From Tropicimonas isoalkanivorans (lineage in GTDB: Bacteria; Pseudomonadota; Alphaproteobacteria; Rhodobacterales; Rhodobacteraceae): 64,000 bases of DNA. A program made the translations under genes and the position numbers. Positions 2,235 to 60,400 of this stretch are shown here, one piece after another; the first letter of the stretch is position 1; each line of letters starts with the position of its first letter. The stretch covers positions 62,001-126,000 of the forward strand of contig NZ_FOLG01000001.1 of NCBI RefSeq assembly GCF_900112335.1, in the 5' to 3' direction. The notes beneath the pieces are model-generated. The model was not told the origin of the DNA and ran no database searches. It saw nothing but the letters and a program-made list of their open reading frames with translations.

Positions 2235-3110
2235 ATGGCGATCACCGCGAAACAGGTGAAGGAACTGCGCGACCAGACCGGCGCAGGCATGATGGACGCC
2301 AAGAAGGCGCTGACCGAAACCGACGGCGACATGGAGGCCGCGGTTGACTGGCTGCGCACCAAAGGCCTGGCCAAGGCTGCCAAGAAGTCCGGCCGCACCG
2401 CGGCTGAAGGCCTGGTGGGCGTGGAGGTTGACGGCGGCACCGGCGTGGTCGTGGAGTTGAACTCCGAGACCGACTTCGTCGGCAAGAATGCCGAGTTCCA
2501 GGAGATGGTCAGCGCCATCGCCAAGACCGCCATCAACGCGCCGGACCTGATGTCGCTCAAGAGCGCCGACCTGGGCGGCAAGACGGTGGAAGAGACGGTC
2601 ACGGACAAGATTGCCAAGATCGGCGAAAACATGTCCCTGCGCCGGATGGAGCGCCTCGAAGGCGAGACTGTTGTCTCCTACGTGCACAACGCCGTCGCGC
2701 CCGGACTGGGCAAGATTGGTGTGCTCGTCGCACTGACGGGGGGCGATGAAGCCTTCGGCAAGCAGGTGGCCATGCACATCGCGGCTGCCAGCCCGGCGTC
2801 GCTGTCCGAGGCAGACCTGGATCCGGCCATCGTCGAGCACGAGAAGCAGGTTCAGATGGACATCGCTCGCGAGTCCGGCAAGCCGGAAGCCGTCATCGAA
2901 AAGATGATCGTCGGCCGGATGAAGAAATTCCTGGGCGAAGTTACGCTCCTGGGGCAGGCCTTCGTCGTCAACCCGGATCTGACGGTTGGCGAAGCCGCCA
3001 AGGACGCCGGCGCCGAGATCACCGGTTTCGTTCGCATGGCAGTGGGCGAGGGGATCGAGGTCGAGAAGGAAGACTTCGCAGCCGAGGTCGCCAAGGCCGC
3101 GCAAGGCTGA
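2235..3110 (+). CDS. tsf: translation elongation factor Ts
   Basis: 291 residues, the usual length. The N-terminal UBA-like domain with [19 protein letters not shown] (about residues 8-26) is followed by the nucleotide-exchange core that displaces GDP from EF-Tu. A strong GAGGAG ribosome site precedes the ATG. It forms an operon with rpsB and is followed by a GC hairpin terminator. The canonical neighbour frr/pyrH is not next; the following DNA is instead an AT-richer segment with unrelated genes, suggesting that the usual order has been interrupted. Confidence 0.98.
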
Positions 3111-3524: not shown

Positions 3525-4358
3525 CTACGCTAAGTCACCGTGAAGGCTATAGATCTGATTCAAAAAAGCGGCCTTCAGGACCGCTTGTGCCGTGGTTGCA
3601 ACGTCAAGCGTCTCGCGCGCGAGGCGGAGGTGTTTCTCCACCGTCGGAGGGGTCAGGCCCATGATCGACGCGATATCCGCCGTCGTCTTTCCGTCTCCGA
3701 CCCACTCCAGAACCTCGCGCTGGCGCGGCGTCAGGGCGCGGCGCGTTTGCGGATGGGGCAAGCCGATAAGGCGCAGGTGGAGGACATTGCACATCGCTGT
3801 GATGACCCGACCGTGCTCAGCCCAGATCTCGTCCGTCTGGTCGAAGGACAACGCCGGGACGGAGGTGAGGCTGATCCCGCCCTTGGCGCGTCCTGACGAT
3901 GTGGGAAAGCTGATCGTGTAGCCGCCCAGAAGCCCGTGGGACCGGTTGAAGGCCCAGATCCGCTCTGCTGCCGAGCTTGACTTGCCGCCAAGAGGCAGGC
4001 TTTCGGCGTCCCTCCAGGAGCACGCCCCAACGTTTCGAAGCGCCCAAAGCGTCATAGGAGCCTGCTGGTACAATCCCGATTCCAGAAACGTTTGAATGTA
4101 CTCGGGGTCGTGATTTGTCAGAACGAGCATGTCCTGCAGATCCCCCAGCGAATGCTCAGTGCGGAACCTGGTGAATCCGTACAGGACACGATTGAACCCG
4201 AACCGTGCCATGACGTCTGTATGGTAATCCCATACCTGCTGCATGTCCGGGAGTGTTGTGATCCGTTCGACATACCCGAGGATCGCCGAGGGCGCCTCCG
4301 TGCCTGATAAGCCGGACGCGGAGAGATGCGCACTTTGCCGGGGAATGTCTTCGCTCAC
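3525..4358 (-). CDS. LuxR-family regulator with autoinducer-binding-type domain (LuxR solo)
   Basis: 277 residues. Residues about 40-190 resemble the autoinducer-binding domain (VWDYHTDVMARFGFNRVLYGFTRF, GLLGGYTISFP), and residues about 208-265 are a clear LuxR helix-turn-helix (ALTPRQREVLEWVGDGKTTADIASIMGLTPPTVEKHL). No luxI-type synthase is in the window, so it is a solo regulator whose ligand is unknown. It is transcribed away from rquA, with a 353-base divergent region between them that holds two inverted repeats, making rquA a plausible target. Base composition is lower in GC than the tsf and phosphate genes on either side. Confidence 0.85.
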   Translation of the reverse strand: MSEDIPRQSAHLSASGLSGTEAPSAILGYVERITTLPDMQQVWDYHTDVMARFGFNRVLYGFTRFRTEHSLGDLQDMLVLTNHDPEYIQTFLESGLYQQAPMTLWALRNVGACSWRDAESLPLGGKSSSAAERIWAFNRSHGLLGGYTISFPTSSGRAKGGISLTSVPALSFDQTDEIWAEHGRVITAMCNVLHLRLIGLPHPQTRRALTPRQREVLEWVGDGKTTADIASIMGLTPPTVEKHLRLARETLDVATTAQAVLKAAFLNQIYSLHGDLA

Positions 4359-4711
4359 TCGGCCTCCAACACCTCGTCACGATAAAATTCGTTAATCGAA
4401 GGACAACATAAGTAAATGCTTGGAGCCTGTCGAGGCGCGGCTTACGCCGGGGCTGGGGGCATATTGCCCGTATTGAGCCGAGAGTTGCAAAAGACGCCAT
4501 TCGGGATTGCGTTTCGTGAAGGTTTTGGCGAGATATGCCGCATTTGCGTGGTCGGTTGACCGCATTAAGGTCCTCCCCAAATCCCGGTAAGGACCAAGGC
4601 CGAATATCCCGAGACGAAGGACGGGATATCGGTTAGAGGTCGTTTTTACTCATCCGCACGCGCGGCGGGCACCGATGGCGCCGAGACAGGGGCAAACAGA
4701 AAGGTCTAGGA
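4359..4711. promoter_or_regulatory. divergent control region between luxR solo and rquA
   Basis: No supported gene in these 353 bases. It must contain both promoters. Two adjacent inverted repeats (4569-4595 and 4604-4629) lie 80-140 bases before the rquA start and are listed as one element. Confidence 0.55.
4569..4629. promoter_or_regulatory. paired inverted repeats upstream of rquA
   Basis: First repeat: GGTCCT (4569-4574) and AGGACC (4590-4595). Second: ATATCCCG (4604-4611) and CGGGATAT (4622-4629) around a ten-base spacer; both arms of the second are flanked by CG-rich bases that extend the symmetry imperfectly. Candidate operator for the divergent LuxR protein or another regulator. Confidence 0.45.
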
Positions 4712-5467
4712 ATGAACGCGAGCGTTGACTTCGGCGTCGAGCAGGAGAAACCCGCCCGAGCAATTCATGGTGGGCAGGCAGCCGTGTCGAAGGCCGCCGC
4801 GGCGGCTCCGGCACTGCCGGACTACCTGGTCGATGTCTATACCTGGGCCTACGTCGCCCCGAAGATGGTGGACATTCTTGATAGAGAGATCATTGTCGCC
4901 ATCATCCTGTGGTGTCAGCAGAACAAGCTGATGCGCGCGGCCCGCGAGGAGATTGCGGCGGGGAGCCGCGTTCTGCAACCCGCAGCCGTCTACGGGAAAC
5001 TGGTCGGTCACCTGGCCGAAAAGATCGGGCCAAAGGGCGAATACCATGTGACAGACATCCAGCAGGTGCAGATCGACCACGTGCGCCGCAAGATCGGAGA
5101 TCTGCCGCAGTCGCGCACTGAGATCTGCGACGCGCGCACCACCGGCGACGGGCTTTATGACACGGTTTGCAGCTACTTCCTGATGCACGAGGTGCCGGAA
5201 GACTACAAACGTGACATCGCGAACAACCTTGCCTCACACGTGAAGCCCGGCGGCAAACTGATGTTCGTGGATTATCACGAGCCGGCGTTCCTGCACCCGA
5301 TGCGTCCGATCATCTGGCTTGTTTTCAAATGGTTGGAGCCGTTTGCGAAAGCTCTGTGGAAGAATGAAATGTTCGACTACATCGACGAGCCCGAGCAGTT
5401 CGAGTGGCGCAAGGAGACCTATTTCGGCGGTCTTTATCAAAAGGTCGTCGGCATCAAGCGCGGCTGA
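4712..5467 (+). CDS. rquA: RquA-type quinone aminotransferase (rhodoquinone biosynthesis, methyltransferase fold)
   Basis: 251 residues. RquA uses S-adenosylmethionine as amino donor to turn ubiquinone into rhodoquinone. Diagnostic features: VYTWAYVAP at 42-50, a degenerate SAM motif I VLQPAAVYG at 87-95 in place of the usual GxGxG, LMHE at 157-160, VDYHEPAFLHP at 186-196, and a C-terminal RKETYFGGLYQKVV block. These are the RquA hallmarks I recognise and they separate it from UbiE-type methyltransferases. Rhodoquinone supports fumarate reduction at low oxygen. Neighbours are a divergent LuxR solo and a glutaredoxin fusion. The first 35 residues are Ala-rich and not conserved. Confidence 0.85.
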   Translation: MNASVDFGVEQEKPARAIHGGQAAVSKAAAAAPALPDYLVDVYTWAYVAPKMVDILDREIIVAIILWCQQNKLMRAAREEIAAGSRVLQPAAVYGKLVGHLAEKIGPKGEYHVTDIQQVQIDHVRRKIGDLPQSRTEICDARTTGDGLYDTVCSYFLMHEVPEDYKRDIANNLASHVKPGGKLMFVDYHEPAFLHPMRPIIWLVFKWLEPFAKALWKNEMFDYIDEPEQFEWRKETYFGGLYQKVVGIKRG

Positions 5468-5524
5468 GGGCAGGGCGGTCGGACCGTTCATTGTCTCCGT
5501 TTCCACCGGAACACCTAACCGGCG

Positions 5525-5582
5525 TGGCGCGTTATCTTTCCAAGATCGCGCCACTCCGCTTCTGCCTCCAGAAATATGGAGG
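5525..5582. terminator. two successive stem-loops after rquA
   Basis: TGGCGCG/CGCGCCA (5525-5531 with 5547-5553) followed by CCTCCA-GAAATA-TGGAGG (5565-5582). They lie 58-115 bases past the rquA stop, in a 290-base gene-free gap, and lack a strong T-run; probable 3' end structures of the rquA transcript. Confidence 0.4.
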
Positions 5583-5757
5583 ATACCTCAATACCTTACG
5601 CTCGCTTCCTGACGGAACGCTTGTCTGCGGATCGGCTGATCGACCTCTCGGGGTAGCTCTGCCGGTTCGATCCAGGCAACTGCGGCTCCGGCACAGACGA
5701 AACGATGAGGAACTGGCCTCAAGTCGCTGATTTCTCGCAGAAAGCTGAGCGCTGAAC

Positions 5758-6534
5758 ATGCCTTTTGATAAACCCCAAGGGTCGTCCGGCACGCGTGCGG
5801 TCCTTTACCGTATGGCGATGCCGGATCACCTTTGCCCGTACGGCCTGAAGTCCCGGTACATCCTGACGCGTCATGGGCTGGATATCGAAGACCATAAGCT
5901 GACCACCCGCGACGAAACGGACGAGTTCATGGCGCGCCACGGGGTGGACACCACGCCACAGACCTGGATCGACGGCGAACGGATCGGCGGGTACGACGCT
6001 TTACGGGAATTCTTCGGCGAAAAGTCGGATGACGACGAGAAAACCTATTGGCCCGTCATCACGATCTTTGCGGTCGCGTTTCTCATGGCGATCGCAGTTC
6101 AGTGGTCCGCTGGCGACCAGATGATGCACCTGAGGCTCATCGAACGCTTCATCGCAATCTCGATGTGCTTTCTTGCCGTTCAGAAGCTCAAGGATGTCGA
6201 GAGCTTTTCCACGATGTTCCTGAACTACGATCTGCTTGCCAGACGCTGGGTCCGCTACGGGTATCTCTATCCGTATGGTGAGGCGCTCGCCGGCATCCTG
6301 ATGCTTGCCGGCGCGCTCACGTGGATCTCGGCTCCGATTGCGATGTTCATTGGTTCCATCGGCGCAGTTTCGGTCTTCAAGGCTGTCTACATCGACAAGC
6401 GGGAGCTCAAGTGTGCCTGCGTTGGTGGCGATAGCAATGTGCCATTGGGATTCATCTCGCTAACGGAAAACCTGATGATGATTGCCATGGCAATCTGGAT
6501 GTCGGCGAAGGCGCTTGGCTACATTTCTATATGA
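5758..6534 (+). CDS. glutaredoxin domain fused to MauE/DoxX-like membrane domain
   Basis: 258 residues. Residues 10-95 are a glutaredoxin fold with the CPYG active site (Cys26; only one cysteine in the motif) and the TTPQTWIDGERIGGYDAL substrate-binding segment. From about residue 100 four to five hydrophobic helices follow, with a KCACVGG motif near residue 220 as in the MauE family, whose founding member helps form disulfides in methylamine dehydrogenase. The fusion suggests electron or thiol transfer across the membrane, perhaps to an envelope protein. It follows rquA by 290 bases on the same strand and converges on a DUF302 gene. Partner unknown. Confidence 0.8.
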   Translation: MPFDKPQGSSGTRAVLYRMAMPDHLCPYGLKSRYILTRHGLDIEDHKLTTRDETDEFMARHGVDTTPQTWIDGERIGGYDALREFFGEKSDDDEKTYWPVITIFAVAFLMAIAVQWSAGDQMMHLRLIERFIAISMCFLAVQKLKDVESFSTMFLNYDLLARRWVRYGYLYPYGEALAGILMLAGALTWISAPIAMFIGSIGAVSVFKAVYIDKRELKCACVGGDSNVPLGFISLTENLMMIAMAIWMSAKALGYISI

Positions 6535-6544
6535 CACCAGATAC

Positions 6545-6590
6545 AAAAACCGCCGCGGAGTGACCTCCGCGGCGGTTGTATATTTTACAT
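6545..6590. terminator. bidirectional terminator between Grx-MauE and DUF302 genes
   Basis: A perfect stem CCGCCGCGGA/TCCGCGGCGG (6550-6559 and 6566-6575) with AAAAA on the left and TTGTATATTTT on the right, so both convergent transcripts meet a stem followed by U-rich sequence. Confidence 0.85.
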
Positions 6591-6631
6591 AATACCGATT
6601 ATCGGACGAATGTAGGAAGGCTCGGTCGACA

Positions 6632-7018
6632 TCAGATGTCCGCCAACGCCTCCTCCAGCATCTTACGAACCTTTTCCGCAACCGGACGTACATCCTCCTT
6701 GTCGACCGGCTCAAAGGCCACCACCGGATCAATGGCGCTGACCTCGATGCCGTCGCCGACCTTGCGGAGGATCACGTTGCACGGCAGCAAAGCACCGATG
6801 CGCGGCTCTCCCTTCACCGCTTCCAAGGCTGACGGCGGATGGCATGCGCCGAGGATCTTGTAGTCCTCGAGATCGGCGCCGAGCTTCTCCTTCAGCTTCG
6901 CAGCGAGGTCGATTTCCGTAAGGACGCCAAATCCATGGGTCGACAGTGCGTCGCGCGTGCGGCGTTCGACCTCTTCCATGTCTGCGGAGTCGATCTGGCG
7001 GTCGATGGTATAGGCCAT
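6632..7018 (-). CDS. DUF302 family protein
   Basis: 128 residues with the DUF302 pattern: an N-terminal HGFGVLTEIDLAAKLKEKLG segment, YKILGACHPPSA with the conserved cysteine and histidine, and LLPCNVILR. No signal peptide is evident. DUF302 proteins are small alpha/beta proteins often found near redox or metal-related genes; their biochemical role is not established. A strong GGAGG site precedes the ATG. It is transcribed alone toward the Grx-MauE gene and lies just downstream of phoB on the same strand. Confidence 0.88.
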   Translation of the reverse strand: MAYTIDRQIDSADMEEVERRTRDALSTHGFGVLTEIDLAAKLKEKLGADLEDYKILGACHPPSALEAVKGEPRIGALLPCNVILRKVGDGIEVSAIDPVVAFEPVDKEDVRPVAEKVRKMLEEALADI

Positions 7019-43233: not shown

Positions 43234-44469
43234 CTATTCCGCCGGGTGCGCGGTCCCGTCTCGCGCCTTCACCTTCTTGAGCCAAAGGGAATGGTGCTCC
43301 CGGGCCCACTGCTCCTCGACGTAGCCTGTGCCCATGGCATCGAACGCGCCCTCCATGCCGAGCGTGCCGATGTAGATATGGCCGATGATCATCGCCATGA
43401 AGAGAAATCCGAAGGCGGCGTGGACGATCTGGGTGTACTGCATCTCCTCCTGCGGGGTGAGTGGCACCGGCAGGTCATTGAAGCCCGCCCAGGACAGCAC
43501 GCCAAGGCCGTTGATCCAGGCGAAGACATCATCGAAGACCAGCACCCGGAATGGCAGCAACAGGCTCAGACCCGTCGCCACGGCGCCAATCGACATGAGC
43601 ATGACGGACCAAAAGATGATCTTCTGCCCCGCGTTGAACTTGCCCGCCGGCGGGTGGACGGAATCGTCGAACAATCCGCCCATCTGACGGAGCCAGCGCA
43701 GATCGTTCATGTTCGGGATGTTGAACCGCACCCATTTGAAGAAGATCAGCACGACGCCCAGCATGAATGCGAAGCTGATGCTGTTGTGGATGAGCTTCGA
43801 CCAATGTGCAAAATCGGCATGTGCCTCCTTGCCCATCACGTCGATGAGGTACGGCCGCCCATACATCGAGACAAGTCCGGTGATCGCCAGCATCACGAAG
43901 GACCCGGCGGTCAGCCAATGGGCAAATCGGTCGATGCTGCCAAAGCGCAGGATCTTGCGCCCGGTCTTCTCGCCCACAATCGGCACGCGCCCGCGGATGA
44001 GGTAGAATACGGCCAGAACGCCGATCATCCCAAGAAGCAGCCAGCCGCCCCATTTCGCAATGACATCCTCGCGAAACTCCAGCCACCACATGCCACCGTC
44101 CTGGATCAGGACATTTGTCGCCGGCCCACGGCTGGTGGCGTCCGTGCTGGCTTCGTCGTAACGCAGCGCCCGCCACATCTCCGCGTCCGACACGCCGCCG
44201 AGCGTGCCGAGCTGCCCCGTGATGGCGGCGGCATTGGCGGGGTCGCCCGTGGCCGTCCTGCGGAACGTGTCGTCGATCTGCTGGCCGCGCTGACGCGCCA
44301 TGATGTCTTCGCGGGTCTGCGCTCCGCCGGTTTCCTGCCGCGCCGCCACCAGAGCCGCCTCGTCCAGGCCGTCCCGATCTGCCGTCAGCGGCGTCAGGAT
44401 GAGCATCGCGAGGACGATAAGGACGATCAGTGCGAGGAACGCGCCGAAGCCGGATTTTCGAGTGCCCAT
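43234..44469 (-). CDS. formate dehydrogenase gamma subunit (cytochrome b556)
   Basis: 411 residues from the ATG at 44469. After an N-terminal helix and a periplasmic segment of about 100 residues, the cytochrome b core holds four helices with heme-ligand histidines (FGSIDRFAHWLTAGSFVMLAITGL, FAHWSKLIHNSISFAFMLGV, IVHAAFGFLFMAMIIGHIYIG). It anchors the alpha-beta dimer to the membrane and passes electrons to quinone. About twice the length of Escherichia coli FdnI because of the N-terminal part. Confidence 0.93.
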   Translation of the reverse strand: MGTRKSGFGAFLALIVLIVLAMLILTPLTADRDGLDEAALVAARQETGGAQTREDIMARQRGQQIDDTFRRTATGDPANAAAITGQLGTLGGVSDAEMWRALRYDEASTDATSRGPATNVLIQDGGMWWLEFREDVIAKWGGWLLLGMIGVLAVFYLIRGRVPIVGEKTGRKILRFGSIDRFAHWLTAGSFVMLAITGLVSMYGRPYLIDVMGKEAHADFAHWSKLIHNSISFAFMLGVVLIFFKWVRFNIPNMNDLRWLRQMGGLFDDSVHPPAGKFNAGQKIIFWSVMLMSIGAVATGLSLLLPFRVLVFDDVFAWINGLGVLSWAGFNDLPVPLTPQEEMQYTQIVHAAFGFLFMAMIIGHIYIGTLGMEGAFDAMGTGYVEEQWAREHHSLWLKKVKARDGTAHPAE

Positions 44470-44555
44470 CGTGTCTTTCTCGGTTGTCCGCAGATGGCCC
44501 ATGACGATCCGGCACATCCCTGGGCCAAAGGTCTAGGGACGCGCCGGCAATTGGA

Positions 44556-44584
44556 GGCACCCGGGGCGAGGCTCCCCGGATGCC
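44556..44584 (-). terminator. stem-loop after fdh beta
   Basis: GGCA-C-CCGGGG and CCCCGG-A-TGCC enclose a seven-base loop, ten bases after the beta-subunit stop. No T-run; likely processing or stabilising element within the operon. Confidence 0.5.
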
Positions 44585-44593
44585 AGAGCGGCC

Positions 44594-45187
44594 TCAGCCG
44601 CCCTTCTGGTCGTAGGCGGTGCCCCAGCCCCAGGCACCCGAGCCGAACCCGCGCGCCACCACGCGTTCGCGATAGGTCGCGGAAACGACGTCGCCGTCGC
44701 CCGCAAGAAGCGCCTTGGTCGAGCACATTTCGGCGCAGAGCGGCAGCTTGCCCTCGGCGATCCGGTTGCGCCCGTATTTCGAGAACTCCGCGTTGGAGAA
44801 GGTCTCTTCCGGTCCGCCGGCGCAGAAGGTGCATTTGTCCATCTTGCCGCGCGATCCGAAGTTGCCCGCCTGCGGGTACTGCGGCGCGCCGAAGGGACAG
44901 GCGTAGAAGCAGTAGCCGCAGCCGATGCACAGGTCCTTGGAGTGCAGAACGATCCCGTCCTCACTCTGATAGAAGCAGTCCACCGGGCAGACGGCCATGC
45001 AGGGCGCGTCCGAGCAGTGCATGCATGCCACCGAGATGGACCGTTCCCCCGGCTGGCCATCCTGGATGGTCACGACCCTCCGGCGGTTGATGCCCCAGGG
45101 AACTTCGTTCTCGTTCTTGCAGGCGGTGACGCAGGCATTGCACTCGATGCAGCGCTCGGCGTCGCAGAGAAATTTTGCTCTACCCAT
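44594..45187 (-). CDS. fdh3B: formate dehydrogenase beta subunit (four [4Fe-4S])
   Basis: 197 residues with four ferredoxin-type cysteine clusters: CIECNACVTACKNEN (13-27), CMHCSDAPCMAVCP (about 55-68), CIGCGYCFYACPFG (about 87-100) and CTFCAGG with a later CAEMC. It relays electrons from the alpha to the gamma subunit. GGAGATAG precedes the ATG; ten bases separate it from the alpha stop. Resembles FdhB of the FDH3-type periplasmic enzymes. Confidence 0.95.
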   Translation of the reverse strand: MGRAKFLCDAERCIECNACVTACKNENEVPWGINRRRVVTIQDGQPGERSISVACMHCSDAPCMAVCPVDCFYQSEDGIVLHSKDLCIGCGYCFYACPFGAPQYPQAGNFGSRGKMDKCTFCAGGPEETFSNAEFSKYGRNRIAEGKLPLCAEMCSTKALLAGDGDVVSATYRERVVARGFGSGAWGWGTAYDQKGG

Positions 45188-45198
45188 TCTCTATCTCC

Positions 45199-48171
45199 TT
45201 ACGCTGGCATGATCTTGCAGAGGGTCGCCTTGGTCTCCTGCATCTGGGTGACCGAGTCGTAGCCGTAGGTCTGCGCCGTGTTGGTCGATTCCCCAAGCAC
45301 ATAGGGGTCCGCCCCGTCGGGATACTTGGCCCTCAGGTCTTCGCCCTGGAAGTGGCCGCCAAAGTGGAACGGCATGAACGCCACCCCCGCCGCGACCCGC
45401 GGCGTCACCATGGCCATCACCTTGACCTTGCCGCCCTCGGGCCCCTCGACCCAGACCTGCGCGCCGTCGCGCACGCCGAGGTTGTTGGCGTCCCGCGGGT
45501 TGATCTCGATGAACATGTCCTGCTGGAGTTCCGCCAGCCAGGGGTTCGACCGGGTCTCGTCGCCGCCGCCCTCGTATTCGACAAGGCGGCCGGAGGTCAG
45601 GATGATCGGATAATCCTTCGAGAAGTCGTTCTTCTGGATGGAGGCGTAAAGCGTCGGCACCCGCCAGAACTTCTTGTCCTCGTAGGTCGGGTAATCCTCC
45701 ACCAGATCCCGCCGGCTCGTGTAGAGCGGCTCGCGGTGGATCGGCACCGGGTCCGGGAAAGTCCAGACCACGGCGCGCGCCTTGGCGTTACCGTACGGGG
45801 CGCAGCCGTGCTTGATCGCGACCCGCTGGATGCCGCCCGAGAGGTCGGTCTTCCAGTTCACGCCGCCGACCTTCTCGATGTAGTCCGACGGAATTTCCCC
45901 CTGCTGGGAGGTCTCGCCGACCTCCTCGCCCATGCCGGGCCGCTGATCCGCGAACCCGGAGACCCATTCGATCATCCGCCGTTCGTAGGGGGTCAGATCC
46001 TTGTCCCAGCCGAGGTCCACGAGCATCTGCATCGTGAACTCCGGATAACCGTCCGGAATCTCCGAGCCCACTGGAGCAACGCCGTCGGCCAGAAGGTTGT
46101 CGCCCTCGTGCTCGACACCGAACCGCGCACGGAATCCCATGCCGCCCTCCGCCACCGGAAGCGAAACGTCATAGAGGTTGGCGGACCCCGGGTGGTTCAT
46201 CTCAGCCGTCCCCCAGGACGGCCATGGCAATCCGTAGTAGTCGCCGTCGGCCGGCCCGCCATTCGCCCGGAGGGTCGTCCGGTCGAACGTGTGCTGGTTT
46301 TCCATGTGCATCTTCAGCCGCTCCGGGCTCTGCCCGGTGTAGCCGATGGTCCACATGCCCCGGTTGAATTCGCGGGTGATGTCCTCGATGTTCGGCTCGT
46401 CATCGCCATCCATCTCGATGTGGCGGAAAAGCCGATCCTCGAAGCCGAACTTGCGCGCGAACTTCGCCATGATCACGTGGTCCGGCAGGCTCTCGAAAAG
46501 CGGCGCGACCACTTGCTCGCGCCATTGCAGCGAACGGTTGGAGGCCGTGACCGAGCCGCGCGTCTCGAACTGCGTCGCCGCGGGAAGCAGGTAGACGCCG
46601 TCGGTCCGATCGTGCAGCACCGCCGAGACCGTCGGATACGGGTCGACCACGACCAGAAGGTCGAGCTTCTCCATGGCGGTCTTCATCTCGACCATGCGGG
46701 TCTGCGAGTTCGGCGCATGACCCCAGAGCACCATGGCACGCGTATTGTCGGGCTGATCCAGGTTCTCCTTGTCCTCCAGCACGCCGTCGATCCACCGGCT
46801 CACGGGAATTCCGTTGAGGTTCATCATCTTCTCGTCGCCGAAGGTCGCGTCCGAGAACCGGCCCTTGAGCCAGTCGAGATCTTCGTCCCAAACCCGCGCC
46901 CAATGGGCCCAGGAACCGTCCGACAGGCCGTAGTAGCCGGGCAGCGTGTCCGCGAGAACGCCGAGGTCGGTCGCCCCCTGCACATTGTCGTGGCCGCGGA
47001 AGATGTTGGTTCCACCGCCAGCGACACCCATGTTGCCGAGCGCGAGTTGCAAGATGCAGTACGCGCGGGTGTTGTTGTTTCCGTTGGTGTGCTGCGTGCC
47101 GCCCATGCACCAGATGACCGTGCCCGGGCGGTTGTTGGCCAGGGTCCGCGCGACGCGGTTGAGCTGGCTGCCCGGCACGCCGGTGACACGTTCCACCTCT
47201 TCGGGCGTCCAGGCGGCCACCTCCTCGCGGATCTGGTCCATCCCCCAGACCCGGGTGCGGATGAACTGCTTGTCCTCCCAACCGTTCTCGAAGATGTGCC
47301 AGAGAATGCCCCAGACCAGCGCCACGTCGCTGCCGGGGCGGAACTGCACGTATTCGTCGGCATGGGCCGCAGTCCGGGTGAACCGGGGATCGCAGACGAT
47401 CAGTGGCGCGTTGTTCTGTTCCTTGGCGCGCAGGACATGCAGCAGCGAAACCGGGTGCGCCTCCGCCGGGTTACCCCCGATGATGAAGATCGCTCGGGAA
47501 TTGTGAATGTCGTTGTAGGAGTTCGTCATGGCGCCGTAGCCCCATGTATTCGCGACGCCGGCAACGGTGGTGGAGTGGCAGATGCGTGCCTGGTGGTCCA
47601 CATTGTTCGTGCCCCAGTAGGCGGCGAACTTGCGGAACAGGTACGCCTGTTCGTTGCTATGCTTCGCGGACCCGAGCCAGTAGACGCTATCCGGGCCGCT
47701 CTCGTCCCGGATGGCCAGCATCTGGTCGCCGATCTCGTTGATCGCCTGGTCCCAGGAAATGCGCGTCCACTCGCCGCCGACCTTCTTCATCGGGTACTTT
47801 AGCCGGCGCTCCCCGTGCGCATGTTCGCGCACCGACGCCCCCTTGGCGCAATGGGAGCCGAGGTTGAACGGACTGTCCCAACCGGGCTCCTGCCCGATCC
47901 AGACGCCGTCCGCCACTTCGGCAAGAACGGTACAGCCGACGGAACAATGGGTGCAGATGGACTTCTTGATCTCCACCGCCTTCTGCGTGGCGGTCTGGGC
48001 CGTGGCCTGGGTGACGGTGCCGCCCGTCGCCGCTATTGCCGACAGTCCTCCGATCGCCAATCCCGAGCCGCGCAGAAAGGCACGGCGATCGACAGAGGCG
48101 TTCGCAGCCTCGGCCAGGAGGGTGGTCCGTTGGCCGCGTCTGGCGACCCCGTTGGTCTTCTTCCTCAGCAT
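45199..48171 (-). CDS. formate dehydrogenase alpha subunit, Tat-exported molybdo/tungstoenzyme
   Basis: 990 residues. A twin-arginine signal RRAFLRGSG (from 29) marks export in folded form. The N-terminal [4Fe-4S] motif is CTHCSVGC (73-80) with the fourth Cys in GSHCAKGAS. The metal ligand is cysteine, not selenocysteine (ARICHSTTVAG, about residue 200), in the usual position with the catalytic His beside it. Bis-MGD-binding segments IFIIGGNPAEAHPV and GGTQHTNGNNN follow. Oxidises formate in the periplasm. Confidence 0.96.
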   Translation of the reverse strand: MLRKKTNGVARRGQRTTLLAEAANASVDRRAFLRGSGLAIGGLSAIAATGGTVTQATAQTATQKAVEIKKSICTHCSVGCTVLAEVADGVWIGQEPGWDSPFNLGSHCAKGASVREHAHGERRLKYPMKKVGGEWTRISWDQAINEIGDQMLAIRDESGPDSVYWLGSAKHSNEQAYLFRKFAAYWGTNNVDHQARICHSTTVAGVANTWGYGAMTNSYNDIHNSRAIFIIGGNPAEAHPVSLLHVLRAKEQNNAPLIVCDPRFTRTAAHADEYVQFRPGSDVALVWGILWHIFENGWEDKQFIRTRVWGMDQIREEVAAWTPEEVERVTGVPGSQLNRVARTLANNRPGTVIWCMGGTQHTNGNNNTRAYCILQLALGNMGVAGGGTNIFRGHDNVQGATDLGVLADTLPGYYGLSDGSWAHWARVWDEDLDWLKGRFSDATFGDEKMMNLNGIPVSRWIDGVLEDKENLDQPDNTRAMVLWGHAPNSQTRMVEMKTAMEKLDLLVVVDPYPTVSAVLHDRTDGVYLLPAATQFETRGSVTASNRSLQWREQVVAPLFESLPDHVIMAKFARKFGFEDRLFRHIEMDGDDEPNIEDITREFNRGMWTIGYTGQSPERLKMHMENQHTFDRTTLRANGGPADGDYYGLPWPSWGTAEMNHPGSANLYDVSLPVAEGGMGFRARFGVEHEGDNLLADGVAPVGSEIPDGYPEFTMQMLVDLGWDKDLTPYERRMIEWVSGFADQRPGMGEEVGETSQQGEIPSDYIEKVGGVNWKTDLSGGIQRVAIKHGCAPYGNAKARAVVWTFPDPVPIHREPLYTSRRDLVEDYPTYEDKKFWRVPTLYASIQKNDFSKDYPIILTSGRLVEYEGGGDETRSNPWLAELQQDMFIEINPRDANNLGVRDGAQVWVEGPEGGKVKVMAMVTPRVAAGVAFMPFHFGGHFQGEDLRAKYPDGADPYVLGESTNTAQTYGYDSVTQMQETKATLCKIMPA

Positions 48172-48284
48172 CGCTTCACTCCCTTGCTTGCACGAGTCCC
48201 TGCCGCGCTCGCTTGGTTTTTCGGTTATGGCTCGATCATCCGGGCATCACGCCACGGGACGCGGGCCGATTTGGCCACGTCCGG

Positions 48285-48476
48285 TCAGAACCGGGCGCTG
48301 CTGTAGTAGGCGCGCGCGTGGGCGGTGTCCTGCAGACAGTCGGCTTTCACATCGGCATCGGCTGCCTGGGCCTCTGCCCCGCCGGCCGCAACTGCGACAG
48401 CCGCTGCCGGCGCCGCGGTTCCCGCCAGCTTCAGAAAATCGCGGCGGCTCGTGGCCTCCTTGGGCGTGCTTGTCAT
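48285..48476 (-). CDS. Tat-signal small protein of formate dehydrogenase clusters
   Basis: 63 residues from the ATG at 48476. A twin-arginine motif (SRRDFLKLAG, residues 10-19) and a long Ala-rich hydrophobic stretch are followed by only about 25 residues ending AHARAYYSSARF. Proteins of this kind are annotated as formate-dehydrogenase-region Tat targets; they may help export or assemble the alpha subunit. Lies between the TorD chaperone and alpha genes. Confidence 0.85.
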   Translation of the reverse strand: MTSTPKEATSRRDFLKLAGTAAPAAAVAVAAGGAEAQAADADVKADCLQDTAHARAYYSSARF

Positions 48477-48529
48477 CCTGGGGTCCTCCTTCCTGTCACT
48501 GTTGTCGGCGCGTGGCCGGTTCTGCGGGT

Positions 48530-49156
48530 TCACCCCGCGCCCATCCGAAAAGCTTCGGCTTCAATGTCCATGAAAACGCGGCCGACCGTCCCGACCGGCG
48601 CGTAAAAGACGGCATTCTTGGCGCCTTCCAGATCGGCAAAGAAATGTCCGGCCCAAGGGCCGACGTGCTTGTTAAAGAAATCCTTCTGGGTGCTGACGTT
48701 GGCCGGTGCGCCAAAGCGGCCCACGATCATCGCCCCCATCATCTCCATGAGGCTCGCAATGCCGTCCTCGGGTTCGAAGACGGTCTCCGACCGCACCATG
48801 CCACGCGCGGTCATGTCCCGCCGCAGCGATGCCAGCGGCTTTTCGTTCAGGAAGCCGGTCAGATAATAGCTGGCATAGGGCAACACCTCGCCCCGCCCCA
48901 ACCCGATGAACAGCCGCCCGAATTCGCTCTCCACCTTCTTGCGCCCGGATCGTTTTGCGACGTCCGCAAGTTGGACGATGGCGCGGCCGAGGTCGCTGTC
49001 GTCCCCCGACAGCGCCGCGGTCTGAGCCAGCAAGCCATCGTCGGGCGGCGCGGACAGAATGAGCCCGAGGAAATTGTAAAGATCCGCCCTGAGGCGATCC
49101 TCCTCTGGAATCTGTCGGTCCGGCGCTGCGTTCATCTCAAGATCGTCCCCCATCAT
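48530..49156 (-). CDS. TorD-family molecular chaperone
   Basis: 208 residues, all-helical, with the TorD pattern LRADLYNFLGLILSAPPDD near the start, VESEFGRLFIGLGRGEVLPYASYYLTGFLNEKPL (about 75-108) and EPEDGIASLMEMMGAMI. Members bind the Tat signal of their molybdoenzyme and hold it until the cofactor is inserted; here the partner should be the alpha subunit. Its ATG overlaps the DUF3306 stop (ATGA). Confidence 0.92.
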   Translation of the reverse strand: MMGDDLEMNAAPDRQIPEEDRLRADLYNFLGLILSAPPDDGLLAQTAALSGDDSDLGRAIVQLADVAKRSGRKKVESEFGRLFIGLGRGEVLPYASYYLTGFLNEKPLASLRRDMTARGMVRSETVFEPEDGIASLMEMMGAMIVGRFGAPANVSTQKDFFNKHVGPWAGHFFADLEGAKNAVFYAPVGTVGRVFMDIEAEAFRMGAG

Positions 49157-55902: not shown

Positions 55903-56712
55903 TCAATCCGTGTCCGCGTTGAACACGAACAGCGTCTCACCGCCGATCGTGTAGCTGTCGATCAACTCCCGCGCCTTGTCCGAGGTCAGCCAGTCCTCCA
56001 GCTTCATCGCCAGATCGTTCCGGACATGATTGTGCATCTCCGGGTTCACCGGCAAATAGGCGTACTGGTTGAACAACACCGGATCGCCGGAATAGAGCAG
56101 CGCCAGATCGCCCTTGTTGCCGAAATTGAGCCAGCTTGCCCGGTCCGACAGGATGTAGGCGTTCATCCCGGCCGCGGTGTTAAGCGCCGCGCCCATCCCC
56201 GCACCGACCGCCTTGTACCAGTCGCCGAACTGGGCCACGTCCAGCCCGGCCTCTTTCCACAGGCTCAGCTCCTTTTTGTGGGTCCCGCTGTCGTCGCCCC
56301 GGCTGACGAAATCGGCCTCTGCGCCCGCGATCTTCTGCAGGCTGTCCACCCCGCTGGCGGCCCCTTTCACCCCGGCGGGATCGTCCGACGGGCCGATGAA
56401 CACGAAGTCATTGTACATGATCTCGCGGCGGTGGGTGCCGTAGCCACCTTCAAGGAAGGCCTCCTCGGCCTTGCGGGAGTGCACGAGGATCGCGTCCACG
56501 TCGCCAGCCTCCCCCAACTTGATGGCCTGCCCCGTACCGACGACGAGCAATTGAACCTCCAGGTCCAGATCGTTCAGAATTTCCGGCAGCAGGACGTCGG
56601 CCAGGCCGGAATTGTGGAACGACGTCGTGACCGCCATCTTCATCACGTCCGCCGCCTGCGCCGCACTGCCGATGGCCAGCGCGAGGATGGCTCCCAAAAG
56701 CTTCTTCATCAT
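55903..56712 (-). CDS. tupA: tungstate ABC transporter substrate-binding protein TupA
   Basis: 269 residues with signal peptide (KKLLGAILALAIGSAAQA) and the TupA anion site near AVTTSFHNSGLADVLLPE (about 28-45), KLGEAGDVDAILVHSRKAEEAFLEGGYG and SRGDDSGTHKKELSLWKEAG. TupA family members bind tungstate far more tightly than molybdate. The TTS motif is one residue shorter than the usual TTTS, but the rest fits. Last gene of the tupBCA operon; ATG overlaps the tupC stop. Confidence 0.88.
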   Translation of the reverse strand: MMKKLLGAILALAIGSAAQAADVMKMAVTTSFHNSGLADVLLPEILNDLDLEVQLLVVGTGQAIKLGEAGDVDAILVHSRKAEEAFLEGGYGTHRREIMYNDFVFIGPSDDPAGVKGAASGVDSLQKIAGAEADFVSRGDDSGTHKKELSLWKEAGLDVAQFGDWYKAVGAGMGAALNTAAGMNAYILSDRASWLNFGNKGDLALLYSGDPVLFNQYAYLPVNPEMHNHVRNDLAMKLEDWLTSDKARELIDSYTIGGETLFVFNADTD

Positions 56713-58923: not shown

Positions 58924-59796
58924 ATGCTGCCGGATTACCCCATGCTGCCCGATCCGACAGATCCGCGCCTGACCCGCCGGATTGCCGGCACCGATCACAC
59001 GGGCGCCTCCACTGAAATTTCGGTGGTCGAGGAACGGCCGCTCACGATTTTCCTGAACAGTCAGGAGATCGTCACCGCCATGACGATCGGCGATTATCCC
59101 GACTACCTCGCCTTGGGATTTCTTCGCAATCAGGGTATGTTACTGAACGACGATACTGTGACCGGCGTCGACTACGACGAGGAGTTGGAGACGGTCGTGG
59201 TACGGACGGCGCGGGAGACCTCCTACGAGGACAAGGTGCGCAAGAAGACCCGCACCAGCGGCTGCGCGGTGGGCACCGTCTTTGGCGACATGATGGAAGG
59301 GCTAGAGGGGCTGCGGCTACCCGCGGCCGAGGTCCGAACCAGTTGGCTCTATGCTCTGGCGAAGGAGATCAACACCACGCCTTCACTCTACCTGGAGGCG
59401 GGCGCGATCCACGGCACCGTCCTCTGCCAGCGGGAACGCCCGCTGGTCTACATGGAGGACGTCGGGCGGCACAACGCAGTCGACAAGATCGCGGGCTTCA
59501 TGTTCCGGCACGGCGTGACGCCTGAGGACAAGATCCTCTACACCACTGGCCGCCTCACCTCCGAGATGGTCATCAAGACCGCGCAGATGGGCATTCCTGT
59601 GCTGGTGTCCCGCTCCGGCTTCACGGCCTGGGGAGTCGAGATCGCCCGCCGTGTTGGACTGACGCTCGTTGGACGGATGCGTGGGCAGAGGTTCGTCTGT
59701 CTTTCGGGCGAAGAGCGGCTGATCCGTGATGCCGATCCGGCTCACGAAGCCGAGGAAGCCTCGAAACATCGGCGTAAGGCGGCGCAGGATGGGTGA
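58924..59796 (+). CDS. fdhD: formate dehydrogenase accessory sulfurtransferase FdhD
   Basis: 290 residues from the ATG at 58924 (alternative ATG 58942). Conserved segments: ERPLTIFLNSQEIVTAMTIGDYPDYLALGFLRNQGM, the single-cysteine active loop TSGCAVGTVFGD (about residue 115) in place of the enteric CxxC, and PLVYMEDVGRHNAVDKIAGF. FdhD moves sulfur from IscS-type desulfurase to the bis-MGD of formate dehydrogenase. Divergent from DUF2478 and first of the fdhD-mobA-mobB-moeA run. Confidence 0.95.
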   Translation: MLPDYPMLPDPTDPRLTRRIAGTDHTGASTEISVVEERPLTIFLNSQEIVTAMTIGDYPDYLALGFLRNQGMLLNDDTVTGVDYDEELETVVVRTARETSYEDKVRKKTRTSGCAVGTVFGDMMEGLEGLRLPAAEVRTSWLYALAKEINTTPSLYLEAGAIHGTVLCQRERPLVYMEDVGRHNAVDKIAGFMFRHGVTPEDKILYTTGRLTSEMVIKTAQMGIPVLVSRSGFTAWGVEIARRVGLTLVGRMRGQRFVCLSGEERLIRDADPAHEAEEASKHRRKAAQDG

Positions 59797-60400
59797 GATC
59801 GCCGGCGTCATCCTCGCAGGCGGGCGGGCGACGCGCATGGGGGGCGGCGACAAGGGATTGCGGCCGCTCGGCGACCGGCGGCTGATCGACCACGTCATCG
59901 CTCGGCTGGCGCCCCAAGTTGGCGCACTTGCGATCAACGCCAACGGAGATCCGTCCCGTTTCGACGAATTCGGCCTGCCCGTCCTGCCCGATCCCCTGCC
60001 CGATTTTCCCGGCCCGCTGGCAGGCGTTCTGGCGGGCCTGGAGTGGGCAGCCGCCGAAGGGTATGCCGCCATCGTGACCGCCGCCGCCGACACCCCGTTC
60101 TTTCCGGCCGATCTGGTTGCCGGGCTGACGCGGGCTGCGGGACCCGATAGGCTTGCTCTGGCGGCATCACGCGACGCGAGCGGAAAGCTCTGGCGGCACC
60201 CGACCTTCGGCCTCTGGCCGATCGCCCTGAGAGACGATTTGCGGGCCTCCCTGCTGGATGGACTGCGCAAGATCGTGCTGTGGACGGACCGTCACGGCGC
60301 CGGTCTCGCCGAATTCGCCCATACCGGCCACGACCCGTTCTTCAACGTCAACGCGCCCGAGGATATCGCTGCGGCGGAACTACTGTTGGTACATCAATGA
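59789..60400 (+). CDS. mobA: molybdenum cofactor guanylyltransferase MobA
   Basis: 203 residues beginning GEIAGVILAGGRATRMGGGDKGLRPLG, the GTP-binding signature, with TAAADTPFF near residue 100. It attaches GMP to molybdopterin to make the MGD form used by both formate dehydrogenases. Its ATG lies eight bases inside fdhD, and it shares ATGA with mobB. Confidence 0.95.
   Translation: MGEIAGVILAGGRATRMGGGDKGLRPLGDRRLIDHVIARLAPQVGALAINANGDPSRFDEFGLPVLPDPLPDFPGPLAGVLAGLEWAAAEGYAAIVTAAADTPFFPADLVAGLTRAAGPDRLALAASRDASGKLWRHPTFGLWPIALRDDLRASLLDGLRKIVLWTDRHGAGLAEFAHTGHDPFFNVNAPEDIAAAELLLVHQ

Follow-up and report, generated by a model that had tools for sequence, protein, structure and literature searches.

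The window analysed here is the whole stretch of 64,000 nucleotides from Tropicimonas isoalkanivorans, near the beginning of which lies an intact open reading frame (4712-5467, + strand) with an ATG start. It encodes a protein of 251 aa that we identify as the rhodoquinone biosynthesis protein RquA on the strength of a family model (NF038261), a phylogenetic tree and residue conservation over 69 RquA sequences. A Shine-Dalgarno-like GAAAGG is found shortly ahead of the ATG of rquA in the window as well as in nine related loci, and the gene is present in one copy in the genome (4.98 Mb in 51 contigs). Ahead of it are two genes on the + strand that served as synteny anchors (1351-2148 and 2235-3110), which we take to be rpsB (ribosomal protein S2) and tsf (elongation factor Ts), followed by a gene on the - strand for a LuxR-family regulator with an autoinducer-binding domain (3525-4358; Pfam PF03472, Autoind_bind, and PF00196, GerE). 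Downstream of rquA, a glutaredoxin-MauE fusion (5758-6534, + strand; PF00462 and PF07291) and a DUF302 gene, together spanning 5758-7018, separate it from phoB; the names phoB, phoU and pst for neighbouring genes are those that we presume from their sequences. The glutaredoxin-MauE fusion gave no tblastn match in the nine related loci (L032-L040) and was therefore excluded from the rquA unit. The G+C content of rquA is 59% versus 64% for the window, a gap too small for dating its gain.

By its sequence, the protein is an RquA, a new member of a known family. This is what the preliminary description of the locus had proposed, as opposed to a UbiE-like methyltransferase, suggesting phylogenetic placement as a check, and both the family models and the tree bear it out. 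The NCBIfam RquA model (NF038261) matches the protein with 287.9 bits (cut-off 175, E 5.1e-86), against 28.4 bits (cut-off 378) for the top model of UbiE, the ubiquinone/menaquinone methyltransferase, while Pfam gives general methyltransferase domains only. The tree was built from the window RquA and 68 others drawn from searches of the family, class and phylum and from the nearest loci (30 of the 75 matching genomes of the phylum search being represented, rows L081 and L082 scoring below the NF038261 cut-off and L002 being the same as L036 in sequence), with 13 other methyltransferases as outgroup, namely the genome's own UbiE-like protein and 12 sub-cut-off matches from the family. The 69 RquA rows are split from these 13 with a branch support of 97/95, the genome's UbiE-like protein falling beyond the RquA rows, and the window RquA sits in a set of 11 Tropicimonas/Aliiruegeria rows (support 100/100); deep placement in this tree is rough, as the bootstrap is still short of settling and several outgroup branches are long.

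The four peptides that the preliminary description quoted as RquA features are all present (VYTWAYVAP at positions 42-50, VLQPAAVYG at 87-95, VDYH at 186-189 and FGGLYQKVV at 238-246), but QPAA is no general signature of the family, V and C being the commonest residues at positions 90 and 92 among the 69 rows. VLQPAAVYG is an altered SAM motif I, as compared with the canonical form of that motif. Within it, L88, Q89 and G95 are 96-100% conserved among the 69 rows, and QPAAVYG is unchanged in all 11 rows of an alignment that joins the window to nine Tropicimonas/Aliiruegeria loci and to a locus (L041) from a metagenome-assembled genome (MAG). An altered motif I has been described for RquA by Stairs et al. 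2018 (PMC5953543). Residues P36, Y38, Y43, Y47, G95, D115, E160, P162 and P210 are invariant in the 69 rows; D115 is accompanied, 25 residues further on, by D140, which is found in 93% of them. By motif and by this 25-residue spacing, D115 and D140 match D118 and D143 of the Rhodospirillum rubrum RquA as their putative counterparts, the joint replacement of which by alanine is reported to abolish rhodoquinone synthesis in E. coli (PMC9814641).

An AlphaFold model of the window RquA, made with 11 sequences, has a modest mean pLDDT of 70 and a pTM of 0.69, residues 1-33 falling below a pLDDT of 50; the N-terminus of the R. rubrum protein is likewise reported as low-confidence (PMC9814641). Foldseek ranks first, for this model, a protein whose function is not stated; by title, almost every other row shown is a SAM-dependent methyltransferase, with yeast Coq5 at rank 28. 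No solved structure close to RquA by sequence was found, the one match being weak (E 0.00097).

The nearest named relatives of the window are Tropicimonas and Aliiruegeria, in agreement with the Rhodobacterales-like genome first suggested for it: nine of the ten nearest-relative loci belong to these genera (best segments 70-80% identical) and the tenth to the alphaproteobacterial MAG (45%). All nine genomes of the window's genus, the window genome included, carry rquA; these nine overlap with the nine named related loci, one shared pair being G007/L036. The rarity initially claimed for the gene is confirmed at the level of the family, where RquA scores over the cut-off in 4/394 genomes, two of them in the window's genus; the corresponding counts are 23/385 for the class and 61/398 for the phylum, the window genome being included in each. 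Any match to the RquA profile at E 0.001 is found in 288 of the 394 family genomes, and the matches below the cut-off, 12 of which were placed in the tree, are taken to be other methyltransferases save for two truncated copies of rquA. Of two phylum-search genomes that belong to one genus, G1096 and G321, only G1096 has RquA. The family's other RquA copies at hand, those of G223 and G375, branch away from the window's genus in the tree, and none of luxR, tsf and phoB could be matched within about 20 kb around them. Given this separate branching and these other surroundings, rquA was probably gained more than once in the family.

The two truncated copies lie at 6966-7334 of L054 (G208), covering profile positions 1-109, and at 9777-9950 of L055 (G093), covering positions 1-58. 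The genes before them resemble by eye the DUF2231 and ethylbenzene-dehydrogenase-like neighbours of the G223 copy (L052), the one locus at which these two families were tested. The pattern over L052, L054 and L055 suggests a second rquA gene setting undergoing loss. Stairs et al. 2018 (PMC5953543) had already counted rquA in 6/513 Rhodobacterales genomes, so that the preliminary view of a lineage not usually credited with rhodoquinone is not supported; neither Tropicimonas nor Aliiruegeria is named in the main text of that study. Rhodoquinone is inferred in 24 orders in the available part of a 2026 survey (PMC13386864), and no paper bringing together Tropicimonas and rhodoquinone was found among the open-licence literature.

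The context of rquA is conserved among the related loci. In all nine of them rquA stands between luxR and phoB, and in the window and all nine luxR lies about 2 kb or less from rquA and is oriented away from it. The rpsB-like gene (91-98% identity) and tsf are found ahead of luxR in eight of the nine loci, neither being found within the flank of L034. Between luxR and rquA lies aroQ, which a family model identifies in L056 as a type II 3-dehydroquinate dehydratase, in six of the nine loci (not L032, L033 or L038), and L035 and L037 have an extra gene there as well, whose product of 419 or 392 aa resembles an oxidoreductase by eye. LuxR orthologues (E <= 1e-40) occur in 84/120 family genomes; leaving aside the two members of the window's genus, they occur in 82/118, all of them without an RquA over the cut-off. 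Among the best-scoring 28 of these 82 rquA-less LuxR loci, tsf is present in 24, aroQ in 13 and rquA in none, within a flank of about 1.5 kb beyond which absent genes may lie. A LuxR regulator adjoining tsf, often with aroQ, is widespread in the family (L121-L148).

Since tsf, luxR and aroQ occur without rquA, and since genes intervene between luxR and rquA, it seems that rquA was inserted into an existing neighbourhood. The tsf/luxR/aroQ arrangement looks like an older neighbourhood of the family to which rquA was added, LuxR appearing incidental to rquA and probably outside the rquA unit. The preliminary description had read the adjacency of a LuxR solo as a sign of regulated quinone switching. 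The neighbour does carry both Autoind_bind and GerE, but it is a solo by position only, the LuxI-type synthase family having two matches elsewhere in the genome, and neither the apparent age of the neighbourhood nor the many LuxR orthologues in genomes without over-cut-off RquA fits a coupling of the two genes. That description was right on the gene and probably wrong on the meaning of LuxR.

An alignment of the regions upstream of rquA brings out a block of conserved elements at fixed spacing (4468-4579 in the window), consisting of a TTGC-type pair, TTTGCCGCATKTT and TA.gGTC. The distal half (4485-4510, + strand), a proposed regulator site, has one TTGC at 4485-4488 and another at 4507-4510, 22 bp apart, and [T/C]TGC followed by [A/T]TGC at this spacing is found in the window and all nine related loci, the pair sitting 1 bp closer to the proximal element in L032 and the first TTGC being CTGC in L035. 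The proximal element, TATGCCGCATTTG (4534-4546, + strand; search pattern TTTGCCGCATKTT), is a proposed activator site; the window and all nine related loci have it with no more than two mismatches, at a distance of 134-178 bp from the ATG. It has two mismatches to the pattern both in L035 and in the window, where it is the sole copy in 64 kb. TAAGGTC (4566-4572, + strand; consensus TA.gGTC), which consists of conserved block columns, is the proposed -10 region of an rquA promoter.

The ten sequences compared are all related, and the block was aligned on the best of its own motifs, a choice in its favour. Of its 112 columns, 27 are shared by nine or ten of the ten loci, whereas 2000 random placements gave 0.03 such columns on average and never more than 1. 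When three close relatives are left out, 31 columns are kept at 6/7 (random placements: mean 0.87, maximum 5), and beyond the proximal element, which is the anchor, 16/97 columns are still as conserved. Pairs of sequences are on average 49% identical within the block, versus 26% in the preceding 112 bp and 35% in the 80 bp that lead up to the ATG. A matrix of the block scores 57-114 in the ten loci from which it was built and is negative in all of the best-scoring 28 rquA-less LuxR loci, in all 55 other RquA loci (L059-L113), in L041 and L052-L055, and in the sdh and ubiTUV stretches. Stray single matches to the proximal pattern, with two mismatches, occur at other places in five of the nine related loci and in 4/28 rquA-less loci, close to the 0.1 per locus found in shuffled sequences. 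In L035 and L037 the block elements lie between the extra gene and rquA, which ties the block to rquA. If TA.gGT is a -10 region, the centre of the proximal element would fall near -40 and that of the distal pair near -80, an arrangement like that of an activator-dependent promoter. The block may be a dedicated, if putative, promoter and control region of rquA, and its existence makes regulation of rquA plausible by this route, not through LuxR adjacency.

Several known regulators were considered for this region. The consensus of FNR is TTGAT-N4-ATCAA, and no such box with two or fewer mismatches was found within 450 bp upstream of rquA in nine of the ten loci, the window included, the lone FNR-like match being at -389 in L039; no convincing FNR box was found in the ubiT region either. 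With the RegA/PrrA consensus that PMC5435760 cites from Mao et al., ten 300-bp upstream regions contain 3 full sites versus 2.4 expected, PrrA being reported to lack a strong consensus (PMC4263372), and 44 half-sites versus 26.7 expected, an excess due in part to the proximal element, which contains TGCGGC on its reverse strand, a fit to the half-site. The CenR motif, given as TGA-N8-TGA (PMC9275681), is unlike the block by eye. No Rfam match to an RNA element was found upstream of rquA, and the presumed leader RNA (4566-4711) folds no better than its shuffles (z -0.58). Among the papers listed from the open-licence literature, none has the control of bacterial rquA in its title or in the opening of its abstract.

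The genes for oxygen-independent ubiquinone synthesis, ubiT, ubiU and ubiV, lie adjacent to each other on contig 8, all scoring over their cut-offs, and UbiU is over its cut-off in 9/9 genomes of the genus. Chobert et al. report that RquA co-occurs with the O2-independent pathway in 73/84 genomes and that the RquA step is experimentally confirmed in 15 species (PMC11707229). The genes sdhC, sdhD, sdhA and sdhB are clustered on contig 11, apart from the contig of rquA, with SdhA, SdhB and SdhC over their model cut-offs and SdhD below (34.3 vs 41.8 bits). The flavoprotein family PF00890 has one full-length match in the genome, which is SdhA, and 22 partial ones. Each of the nine genus genomes has one SdhA over the cut-off; an extra sub-cut-off relative occurs in three of them, the window genome not being among these. 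A search for a fumarate-reductase-type complex II had been suggested from the outset, and with the PF00890 and SdhA models no second flavoprotein of that type was found in the window's genome, which has only the one SdhA. With no second complex II found, any reduction of fumarate by rhodoquinol would fall to the ordinary complex. In L056 (G007), the stretch 3815-6468, some 3-6 kb from rquA, encodes an SdhA/FrdA-related flavoprotein, under all cut-offs shown, and also a ferric-reductase-like membrane protein.

The window further contains a formate dehydrogenase cluster on the - strand, about 38 kb from rquA (43234-49156), made up of a cytochrome b gamma subunit (43234-44517) and an FDH3 beta subunit (44594-45187), both over their model cut-offs, and of an alpha subunit (45199-48171) and a TorD-like chaperone (48530-49156), both below. 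Electrons from this formate dehydrogenase might enter the quinone pool. Nearby, at 55903-56712 on the - strand and 59726-60400 on the + strand, are genes for a tungstate-binding protein of the TupA type (below cut-off) and for MobA (over cut-off). Quinone tests of the kind reported for these bacteria are usually aerobic, and Tropicimonas is described, in those parts of the accounts that are available, as aerobic or facultatively anaerobic. The quinone of Aliiruegeria is given as Q-10, rhodoquinone being named for neither Aliiruegeria nor Tropicimonas in the available part of the source (PMC8267831). The RquA of a Desulfobacterota genome, good in sequence, is reported to have yielded no rhodoquinone in E. 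coli (PMC13386864).

We consider it very probable that these elements belong together, with a functional RquA, ubiquinone fed to it by UbiTUV, the single SdhCDAB as fumarate reductase, one gain of the gene and a promoter of its own. By analogy with R. rubrum, RquA would swap a methoxy group of ubiquinone for an amino group from S-adenosylmethionine, with Mn2+, to give rhodoquinone, and at low oxygen the supply of ubiquinone would be sustained by the O2-independent UbiT-UbiU-UbiV route. Rhodoquinol would then take up electrons at dehydrogenases and hand them to the one SdhCDAB complex, acting as a fumarate reductase. The gene would have been gained once, probably, by the ancestor of Tropicimonas and Aliiruegeria, between the aroQ-luxR-tsf cluster and the pho/pst genes, and kept since, and it would probably be transcribed from its own promoter by a putative activator on the upstream block, not by LuxR. 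More tentatively, and as an idea somewhat likelier to fail than to hold, an undescribed regulator might switch on rhodoquinone synthesis throughout this marine genus by binding a dedicated operator in two parts (a TTGC-type pair with a spacing of 22 bp, and TTTGCCGCATKTT centred near -40 of a TA.GGT promoter), with one ordinary succinate dehydrogenase in each genome and quinone chemistry alone setting the direction of complex II.

That the protein could be an ordinary class I methyltransferase of the UbiE/COQ5 type, mistaken for RquA, is scarcely credible; its general Pfam domains and a fold shared with yeast Coq5 are compatible with such an identity, but the wide gap between the RquA and UbiE model scores and the separation in the tree argue strongly against it, and a UbiE-like gene is present elsewhere in the genome (G000:C30:4879-5625; 296.4 bits on the UbiE model, below its cut-off). 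It is also very unlikely that the neighbouring LuxR controls rquA, so that quinone type would follow cell density or an acyl-homoserine-lactone-like signal. The constant proximity and divergent orientation of the two genes would fit such control, but the orthologues in 82/118 family genomes without over-cut-off RquA, together with the tsf and aroQ found beside many of the best-scoring 28 of them, make LuxR appear the older resident, and luxR is separated from rquA by aroQ in six of the nine related loci, and by the extra gene too in L035 and L037, the conserved elements lying next to rquA.

The role of the product and the nature of the block also admit other readings. A real RquA might serve rhodoquinone use beyond fumarate respiration, for example with the formate dehydrogenase of the window, as could be argued from the single SdhA in a standard-looking sdhCDAB cluster and from the FDH3-type enzyme with its cytochrome b subunit (43234-48171). 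We find this distinctly unlikely, as rhodoquinone is described as working together with complex II and fumarate (PMC9814641, PMC5953543, in their available parts), and at about 38 kb from rquA the nearness of the formate dehydrogenase is uninformative. The upstream block, for its part, might be a relic of common descent or the control region of another gene instead of an rquA operator: the ten block sequences are all kin, the anchoring favours the block, and stray proximal-like matches occur with and without rquA. This is unlikely, if worth keeping in view, given the higher identity within the block than on either side of it, a number of kept columns that random placement never approached, negative matrix scores in all of the best-scoring 28 rquA-less LuxR loci, and the position of the elements in L035 and L037.

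The RquA family and the presence of rquA in Rhodobacterales were already known. What is new is the finding of rquA at one site in every examined genome of one genus, together with UbiU and one SdhA over their cut-offs, and of an apparently dedicated control region upstream of it. Rhodoquinone is a marker of low-oxygen fumarate respiration, and a group that includes culturable, named species offers a clean setting for the study of rquA regulation and of whether a single complex II works in both directions.

Among known systems, the RquA of R. rubrum, as far as it is described in PMC9814641, resembles the window protein in its family (NF038261, whose cut-off the window protein exceeds), in its equally spaced paired aspartates, in a methyltransferase-like fold and in a poorly modelled N-terminus, the two being likened by family model, motif and spacing. 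In motif I (QPAAVYG) the window protein differs from most RquA rows, having P and a second A where these mostly have V and C. The genome's own UbiE-like protein shows a weak sequence likeness to RquA, and the tree places it apart from the RquA rows. The Rhodobacterales rquA genes of Stairs et al. 2018 (PMC5953543) share with the present one the order and a patchy distribution, but whereas rquA is reported there to lie near respiratory genes in many genomes, its steady neighbours in Tropicimonas and Aliiruegeria are luxR and phoB.
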